The position numbers and the translations under genes are program-made. The notes beneath the pieces were generated by a model, which worked only from the letters and a program-made list of their open reading frames with translations, ran no database searches and had not been told where the DNA came from. 64,000 bases of DNA, from NCBI GenBank assembly GCA_028724905.1, contig JAQYTG010000004.1, forward strand, positions 62,001-126,000, given 5' to 3'. The stretch comes from Actinomycetaceae bacterium (lineage in GTDB: Bacteria > Actinomycetota > Actinomycetes > Actinomycetales > Actinomycetaceae). Position 1 is the first letter of the stretch, and each line of letters opens with the position of its first letter. Of the stretch, positions 16,428 to 18,663 are shown one piece after another.

Positions 16428-16750
16428 TATGTTCCTCCTGCGGCGCCCCTCGTCCTTTACTGTCTGTCGTCACTCTCTCTACTGGTCGTCACGCTCTCCA
16501 CCTACTCGTCGTCACCCTTTTCTACCCGTCCCCCTTCTCGTCCGTCACTCTTTCTGCCTCCTGTGACCTCTTCTGTCCGTCACCCTTCCCGCTCGTTATT
16601 CTTCCCGCTTGTCGTTCTTCGGGCTCGTCATCCTTTTTCTGCCGCTCGTGACTCTTTTCTGCCTCCCGTGACTTTTCCCCTCTCTCGTGGGCTCTTCTGC
16701 GCGTCACTATCCTTTCTGTCTGTCGTTGCGTTACCACCCTTTCTGCTCGA
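16428..16750 (+). repeat. Long pyrimidine-rich tract with loose CGTCAC/CTTTTCTGCC repeats
   Basis: For more than 300 bp the plus strand is dominated by C and T, with recurring words such as CGTCACYCTTT, TTTTCTGCC and CTCGTSACT at irregular 20-35 bp spacing. No neighbouring intergenic region has such strand asymmetry. ORFs here read as Ser/Pro/Leu or Arg/Glu low complexity and are not credible genes. It lies about 250 bp upstream of the GH25 lysozyme gene. Confidence 0.8.
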
Positions 16751-16916
16751 CGCACGCGTTTGTAGCGCCTTATCTTCTCTGCTCATCTCGACTGCTGCTT
16801 CGTGGTTGTGGGATTTCGTGCCGCCCTTATACCGTGTGAATCATGTTAATGTTGTGAAAATTTTTAATATTGTTGCACAAATGTGAAAGCTGTTATACAT
16901 TGTTTATTAAGCGTTT

Positions 16917-16945
16917 TTTGAGACACGTGGGGAAGGTGTCTCAAA
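16917..16945 (+). promoter_or_regulatory. Hairpin in the probable leader of the GH25 gene
   Basis: TTTGAGACAC and GTGTCTCAAA are exact inverted repeats around a 9-base loop. It lies 57 bases before the lysozyme start, in an AT-rich stretch (TTTTTAATATTGTTG upstream) that probably holds the promoter. I compared it by eye with the c-di-AMP riboswitch found before some actinobacterial cell-wall hydrolases and do not see that motif. Confidence 0.6.
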
Positions 16946-17001
16946 GGGCGCTAACAGTTTCGTTAAGTTTTGGTGGCAACACGTGTTGAAGGGCTTCGGG
17001 C

Positions 17002-18663
17002 ATGAAGAAAAATGTGCGGGCACGTCTTTTGGTGGCGATTTCCCTCGCTAGTGCGCTAGCTGTTTCCCCTGTCGTGACGGCAGTACCTGCTGTGGCAGCG
17101 CCTAGCGCGACGATTGCACGAGTAAGCGGTTCGTTTACGGGGGTACACGCACAGCTTCCTGGCGGTATCGTCCAGGCGCGGCAAGAAGATGACGGGCAAG
17201 CGATCCCGAGTGAAGACGATATTGCTGCGGCCAAGGGGGCAGAGCAGCAAACGCAGGCTTCTATCGCCGATATTGAAGTGCAGCTGGCCAACCTCTCGGC
17301 GCAAAGTCTACAAGCACAGCAGGCAGCTGATGCTGCCCGCCAGGCTTTTGCCCAGGCTCAGGCCGCTGCAGAGCAAGCGGCACGCGAAGCTGAGCAGGCG
17401 AAGCAGCAAGCGGACAAAGCCCAGAAAGATGTGGAGGCGGCTCGCGCAAACATGGCCTCCATCGCTCAGGCGATCTATCAGAACTCCGCCACCAACCTCA
17501 CCACCGCTTACTATTTGTTTGACGCCGATTCCCTCGCAGACGCCTCAGCACACGATCATGCTTTTAGCGTGGTGGCCGACAGTGCCGATGCGAAAGTGCA
17601 GAGTTTTAAGGCGATGCAGGATGTGGCTCGCAACCTCAAAAAACGTGCTGACGCTAAAGCTGCTGAGCAAACTCGCCTGATGGAGGCCGCCGATGTGGCA
17701 GCTGATGAGGCGGCGGCTGCTGCTGAGGCGGCGGCAGCGCAAGAGGCGGCCGTTGATGCCCAGCGAGATGAGTTGCTATCGCAGCTTGCCGCCCAGAAAA
17801 ATACCACCAAGAGCTTAGAGGCGCAGAGGTTCAAAGCCTTGGAAGAGCAGCGCATCGCCCGTGAGAAAGCCGCTGAACAGGCGCGTATCAAAGCTGAAAA
17901 GGAACGGCAGGCCAAGGCTCAAGCGGCGGCTGCTGCTGCGGCGGCTGAAGAGAAGCGGCAGGAGCAGGAGTATGCCAAAGCGGCGGCCAAGGCGAAAGCT
18001 AACGGTCAGCCAGCTCCGCAGAAGCCCACGCCCGCCTCTTCTCCGAAGCCGACTACAAAGAAGGTAGATACCTCAAAACCGATCATCGACGTCTCTTCGT
18101 GGCAGTCGCCGTCACTCATCGACTATGATGCGCTCGCTCAATCCGTGAGTGGTGTGATCATCCGCATTGGTTTCACGGGCACGTACTCGGGCAGTTCGGT
18201 GAATAAGGATTCTGCTTTTGATCGTCACTATGCAGAGTTTACGAAGCGTGGAGTGCCGGTGGGTGCCTACTGGTACTCTGCTGCCAATGAGGGTGACGAA
18301 GGAGCCAATGAGGCGCGTGCTGCACTGCGTTTCCTCGGTGGACGTTCTCTGAGTTTCCCGCTCTACATCGACGTAGAAGACCCCACCCATCAATCGTGGG
18401 CATCAATGTCTACGCTCACGGATCAGAGCCTGAAGTTTGCCTCAGTGGTCAAGGCGGGCGGATATCGCCCAGGGGTGTATGCTTCGTCCAGCTGGTATTA
18501 CAACAAGCTCAACCACTCGAAACTGGCTGGTGCTGGCTTGTCGATTTGGATAGCACAGTGGAGTTCGTATCGTCCGGAGTTGAGCCACGGCCTGTGGCAG
18601 TATACCGATGCGGCACGGCTCAGAGGCTACGCTGGCAATCTCGACGCCAACTGGCTGGGCTGA
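17002..18663 (+). CDS. Secreted coiled-coil GH25 lysozyme
   Basis: A 553-residue exported muramidase that should cut the MurNAc-GlcNAc bond in peptidoglycan. Residues 1-33 are a signal peptide ending near VPAVAA. Residues about 70-310 form long Ala/Gln/Glu-rich coiled coils of the PcsB/RipA/CwlO type, followed by an Ala/Lys/Pro linker to about 355. The GH25 barrel starts with PIIDVSSWQSP, has the catalytic acid pair in YIDVEDPTH and ends at GLWQYTDAARLRGYAGNLDA. Coiled-coil hydrolases of this N-terminal type are usually NlpC/P60 or CHAP enzymes gated by FtsEX; a GH25 end is unusual. No ftsEX is in the window. AAGGG precedes the ATG. Confidence 0.85.
   Translation: MKKNVRARLLVAISLASALAVSPVVTAVPAVAAPSATIARVSGSFTGVHAQLPGGIVQARQEDDGQAIPSEDDIAAAKGAEQQTQASIADIEVQLANLSAQSLQAQQAADAARQAFAQAQAAAEQAAREAEQAKQQADKAQKDVEAARANMASIAQAIYQNSATNLTTAYYLFDADSLADASAHDHAFSVVADSADAKVQSFKAMQDVARNLKKRADAKAAEQTRLMEAADVAADEAAAAAEAAAAQEAAVDAQRDELLSQLAAQKNTTKSLEAQRFKALEEQRIAREKAAEQARIKAEKERQAKAQAAAAAAAAEEKRQEQEYAKAAAKAKANGQPAPQKPTPASSPKPTTKKVDTSKPIIDVSSWQSPSLIDYDALAQSVSGVIIRIGFTGTYSGSSVNKDSAFDRHYAEFTKRGVPVGAYWYSAANEGDEGANEARAALRFLGGRSLSFPLYIDVEDPTHQSWASMSTLTDQSLKFASVVKAGGYRPGVYASSSWYYNKLNHSKLAGAGLSIWIAQWSSYRPELSHGLWQYTDAARLRGYAGNLDANWLG

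Follow-up and report, generated by a model that had tools for sequence, protein, structure and literature searches.

The locus examined here raises the question of whether a coiled coil of the division-hydrolase type has been joined to a muramidase, and whether such a coil may place the enzyme under the control of the divisome. In the window, the 64,000-nucleotide stretch of DNA that was analysed, an open reading frame with an ATG start and no internal stop encodes a protein of 553 amino acids (positions 17002–18663, plus strand; Table 1). The source genome belongs to Arcanobacterium, and its closest named records are the Arcanobacterium sp. MAGs SUG972 and SUG109. The initial annotation had proposed that an FtsEX-style coil is joined here to a GH25 muramidase, and the joining itself was confirmed by the intact reading frame, the domain match, the aligned acidic residues, the modelled hairpin and the recurrence of the protein in three species.

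Table 1. Features of the coil-GH25 gene and its upstream region (positions in the window)
Feature	Position	Strand	Basis or remark
AT-rich block, TGTT-type repeats about every 10 bp	16871..16909	+	Conserved in three species
5' hairpin, 17-pair main stem	16910..16952	+	Fold z = -4.3; conserved in three species
coil-GH25 gene	17002..18663	+	553 aa plus stop; full-length homologues in two further species
Predicted Sec-type signal peptide, residues 1-33	17002..17100	+	Sequence prediction: basic start, hydrophobic core, AVA-A-P site
Variable N-terminal stretch, residues 34-69	17101..17208	+	Fast evolving; disordered in AlphaFold2 model
Coil helix 1, residues 71-171	17212..17514	+	AlphaFold2 models
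Hairpin tip, residues 151-182, including Tyr159 (17476-17478)	17452..17547	+	Conservation; alignment to RipC and Cg1735
Coil helix 2, residues 177-334, including Asn211 (17632-17634)	17530..18003	+	AlphaFold2 model; alignment
Pro/Thr/Ser-rich linker, residues 335-356	18004..18069	+	Low-confidence segment in AlphaFold2 model
GH25 muramidase domain, residues 357-553	18070..18660	+	Pfam PF01183; 4ff5
GH25 acid Asp363 (IIDVSSW)	18088..18090	+	Invariant in three orthologues; aligned with IIDLSGW of 4ff5
GH25 D-x-E, Asp457 and Glu459 (YIDVEDP)	18370..18378	+	Invariant in orthologues; aligned with LDVED of 4ff5

GH25 (PF01183) was the single Pfam domain found, covering residues 362–542 and profile positions 1–179 of 180 (72.2 bits against a cut-off of 27, E = 8.7e-20), and no NlpC/P60, CHAP or M23 domain was matched by Pfam in the 553-residue protein. 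Among solved structures, the GH25 enzyme 4ff5 is the nearest (E = 9e-18). From general knowledge of the GH25 family, we take D363, D457 and E459 to be the catalytic acids. AlphaFold2 models showed residues ~71–334 as one long antiparallel helical hairpin, and the model of the coil alone reached a pLDDT of 85.5, with the turn at about residues 172–176. The full-length model (pLDDT 64, pTM 0.34) was too poor to place the coil relative to the GH25 cleft. The basic start and hydrophobic stretch of the predicted signal peptide are kept in all three species. The sequence thus predicts an exported protein that consists of a signal peptide, a helical hairpin, a linker and a GH25 muramidase.

The relationship of the coil to known division hydrolases was evaluated at the level of family, profile and fold. 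Against NCBIfam, the coil matched NF046048, the DIP1281/RipA family, at 3.5e-8 and SMC at 1e-5; the former match lay far under its cut-off and only ~9 bits above SMC proteins, and DIP1281/RipA was the sole division-hydrolase family matched. Because these family scans were ambiguous, a profile was built from this coil and 32 homologous Actinomycetaceae coils (n = 33) and searched against all PDB sequences. The first rank was taken by Cg1735/RipA (8aud, E = 7e-4) and the third, after a talin fragment, by the RipC chain of the M. tuberculosis FtsEX–RipC complex (8idc, E = 0.037); PcsB and EnvC gave no sequence match in this search. In a control with 1000 heptad-preserving or local shuffles of each target, Cg1735 scored 28.7 bits with the profile against 8.7 for its best shuffle, and RipC 17.4 bits against 6.4. 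Generic coiled-coil similarity was therefore ruled out by the shuffles, whereas the plain NCBIfam scores would have been insufficient alone. In addition, the hairpin and tip of RipC could be aligned with the coil over about 160 residues. A Foldseek search with the coil-only model placed the N-terminal domain of RipA first, EnvC (from the FtsE/FtsX/EnvC complex) at rank 8 and PcsB at rank 16, with weak E-values (best 0.04) and SMC coils mixed among the matches. RipA is a closer structural match to the coil than RipC. Taken together, the profile and shuffle scores indicate that homology to the RipA/RipC coil is established, and the wider likeness to EnvC and PcsB, as seen in the model, may serve as support only.

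Conservation across the 33 coils is highest at the tip (residues 153–178), and Tyr159 is invariant in all of them. FtsX grips RipC at its hairpin tip, where RipC Tyr111 packs on a Phe cluster of FtsX and its mutation abolishes binding (PMC10694151). In the alignment, this Y111 corresponds to the identical Tyr159, the further FtsX contacts I122 and M141 are replaced conservatively by Leu172 and Val191, and M112 differs, being Gln160. The dN/dS values were mostly 0.02–0.09 in the coil (where computable) against 0.045–0.081 in GH25, and 0.17–0.38 in the N-terminus (segment 1–69) and linker; these values are rough since dS is near saturation, and the amino-acid identities among the three species agree with them (tip, 84–90%; GH25, 82–90%; linker, segment 296–356, 44–61%). 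These patterns indicate that the coil is under purifying selection as strong as that on the enzyme domain and is a working part of the protein.

Full-length orthologues occur in two other Arcanobacterium species, with 81% and 75% identity. An assembly chimera or artefact was rejected because the same protein is present in three divergent species. The architecture is rare, as the survey suggested in the initial annotation showed: it was found in 3 of 10 genomes of the genus and in no other among the 213 Actinomycetaceae genomes searched. The closest GH25 proteins, 54–57% identical, are lysozymes of two congeners (L039 and L040), which carry N-terminal choline-binding repeats in place of the coil and lie at another chromosomal place; their GH25 domains and those of the coil-GH25 proteins form one clade (support 100/99). 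In three further congeners the GH25 is only distantly related and is flanked by other domains, and no GH25 was found in two congeners. A sample of 113 GH25 loci from the class Actinomycetes, made up of the best-scoring loci and a selection with long frames, was also searched for the flanking coil, which was present only in two coil-GH25 orthologues (score 0.88; next 0.35) and absent at the 111 other loci.

Homologous coils are found elsewhere on NlpC/P60 hydrolases across the Actinomycetaceae, including one in the source genome, and the coil tree groups the coil of coil-GH25 weakly (87/94) with NlpC coils of other genera. A strikingly long branch (1.17) carries the coil of the NlpC/P60 paralogue in the source genome (L037:6426-7775, G000 contig 16) and its counterparts in the three species, which looks as though this coil changed at the time coil-GH25 arose. 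The neighbours of the coil-GH25 gene are glf on one side and a whiB2-like gene on the other, both in the source genome and in one of the other species (G111); in the third (G137), the gene lies beside whiB and the whiB-GT-DUF5719 side is kept, with the contig ending soon upstream. No GH25 gene was found at the whiB locus of seven congeners. The simplest history suggested by these comparisons is that a resident lysozyme exchanged its wall-binding module for a hydrolase coil and that the gene acquired a new location. Several Actinomycetaceae also have, within gene clusters for polysaccharides, a separate secreted GH25 architecture (L055, L057, L058, L088 and L092), with a conserved N-terminal VADPAIVG..PPDPLAKT region, a central GH25 domain and C-terminal repeats.

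What the coil may bind was assessed by comparison with the two known control systems. The part of the initial annotation that placed the coil with those of RipA-type hydrolases held, and its assignment of RipA to the FtsEX type did not, since RipA is autoinhibited by its own coil and controlled by SteB rather than FtsEX, and RipC is the FtsX client (PMC9897464, PMC12977500; for RipC also PMC10694151). Both systems are encoded in the genome, in a prfB-ftsE-ftsX-(coil-M23) cluster and as adjacent steA and steB genes; ftsX lies at G000:C2:125460-126368 and steB at C18:211056-211982. The FtsX of this genome aligns with M. tuberculosis FtsX over its whole length, and by eye its aromatic clamp is partly kept, with aromatic residues at the equivalents of Y52, F61 and F110 and Met and Leu at those of F113 and F122. 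Only one of the six SteB-bonding residues of RipA (Q163, R164, T167, N171, S174 and R177) is kept, namely Asn171, which corresponds to Asn211. Moreover, the RipA-docking α3–α4 loop of the genome's SteB (L141, G144–L147) appears about five residues shorter in a weak alignment (E = 0.006). The interface residues therefore appear to favour neither FtsX nor SteB decisively.

We consider it somewhat probable, judging from the sequence comparisons, that the coil docks to the divisome through either FtsEX or SteAB. FtsEX alone as the receptor is a tentative choice, and we lean towards it because conservation is centred on the tip. That the coil docks instead to septal SteAB as RipA does, with FtsEX serving the coil-M23 protein of the neighbouring gene, is unlikely, although RipA leads both the PDB profile and the fold matches, supplies the sole division-hydrolase family match in NCBIfam and shares with the three orthologues the SteB-contacting Asn aligned with Asn211. 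The adjacency of steA and steB adds to this case; SteB was found in 208 of the 213 Actinomycetaceae, and its presence, being nearly universal in the family, is uninformative as a discriminator of the receptor. The ftsX operon has its own coil-M23 gene (L038:7407-8798, G000 contig 2), which lies directly downstream of ftsX; its position makes its product the better-placed FtsX partner and likely the cognate one. The tip motif of this product, AYRGE..LDLLANSATPEEF, resembles the RipC lip, and its coil is only distantly related to that of coil-GH25 (-0.4 bits). The SteAB reading is weakened by the replacement of the other five SteB-bonding residues, by the apparently shortened local docking loop and by the sub-cut-off NCBIfam match, which exceeds SMC so little.

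It is also rather unlikely that the protein has no divisome receptor and is a housekeeping lysozyme or a constitutive autolysin of the ordinary kind, with the coil serving as a spacer, a self-association module or a wall-surface module. The sister GH25 proteins do use generic choline-binding repeats, and the coil is rich in Ala and resembles coil proteins such as SMC in part for generic reasons; nevertheless, tip-centred conservation and selection at the level of the enzyme fit a specific binding surface better, and the homology to RipA/RipC exceeds that of composition-matched shuffles. It is highly improbable that the protein acts outside the cell cycle, as a lysin of phage origin or a secreted weapon. 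The same genome does contain two GH25 lysins with C-terminal repeats near apparent phage structural genes (L001 and L002, G000 contigs 18 and 15), probably in two prophages, but these lack the coil and fall in a distant GH25 clade, whereas coil-GH25 starts with a predicted signal peptide and, in two species or more, its gene keeps the same chromosomal neighbours (in the order glf–gene–whiB2-like). An origin as a phage lysin was thus rejected as strongly disfavoured by clade, neighbours and the absence of the coil from the prophage lysins.

Under the favoured reading, that of divisome docking, a swap of the targeting module would have produced a secreted cell-separation muramidase. We infer its septal location, docking, receptor, gating and enzymatic activity. 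The receptor of the hairpin tip would be a divisome regulator in the membrane, for which the extracellular domain of FtsX is the likeliest candidate and SteB the main alternative. Docking would concentrate the enzyme at the septum. Movement of the coil may then present or uncover the GH25 domain, which would cut MurNAc–GlcNAc bonds alongside the coil-NlpC/P60 and coil-M23 hydrolases of the genome. We regard it as conceivable, somewhat short of probable, that FtsEX (or SteAB) is the direct docking site and activator of a septal glycan-cutting enzyme; in this lineage, the same type of coil-mediated control would then govern the cutting of both sugar strands and peptides.

The region upstream of the gene contains two conserved elements (Table 1). 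Across the three species, pairing in the stem of the 5' hairpin survives one change from A-U to G-C, and one pair is G-U; the loop GTGGGGAAG is invariant in them, and hairpins of this type are present only upstream of the coil-GH25 gene in the 10 genomes of the genus. Rfam gave only sub-threshold chance matches for it. It is possibly an RNA regulator. The AT-rich block with TGTT-type repeats is a possible response-regulator site, MtrA-like by comparison with the consensus quoted in PMC3353115. MtrA controls ripA in mycobacteria (PMC6265350), and by analogy MtrA control of the coil-GH25 gene may be guessed. Further upstream in the gap between glf and coil-GH25 (window 16440–16770), the plus strand is strongly pyrimidine-rich, with AT skew to -0.68 and GC skew to -0.40, and contains degenerate ~20-bp TTTTCTGCC..CGTGACT repeats.

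In comparison with characterized systems, coil-GH25 resembles the RipA family (Cg1735/DIP1281 and M. tuberculosis Rv1477; coil and NlpC/P60, SteAB-controlled) in its signal peptide, its hairpin with a homologous tip, its long variable linker and its C-terminal wall hydrolase, and differs in having a GH25 muramidase instead of a D,L-endopeptidase and in its mostly changed SteB-bonding residues. RipC (M. tuberculosis Rv2190c; coil and NlpC/P60, FtsEX-controlled) shares the alignable hairpin and tip, with the Tyr and two conservative contacts, but ends in NlpC/P60 and has Met112 where Gln is found here. The FtsX partners PcsB (CHAP) and EnvC (M23-like) are alike in the coil-hairpin fold recovered by Foldseek, and unlike in their effector domains and in the lack of a coil-profile match. 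The CHAP or NlpC/P60 ends named as usual in the initial annotation do exist among these relatives; M23 has to be added, as in the ftsEX-operon protein of this genome. In the cited papers, coil proteins controlled by FtsEX or SteAB end in endopeptidases or amidase activators, and a search of the open-licence PMC literature found no paper describing the coil-GH25 architecture. Judged by its domains, the RipA/RipC-type coil with a GH25 effector is a variant of the known coil hydrolases.

If the proposed control is true, it would be new for a muramidase to be controlled by the divisome through a coil. Septal cutting of glycan strands alone is not, being already known for AtlA, the N-acetylglucosaminidase of Enterococcus faecalis (PMC12208459). 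Together with the sister lysozymes that have choline-binding repeats, coil-GH25 forms a natural before-and-after pair in which one catalytic domain either has the coil or lacks it, and what the coil alone confers is therefore directly testable. The coil on GH25 would show that this control and targeting module is portable and can be uncoupled from the kind of bond cleaved.
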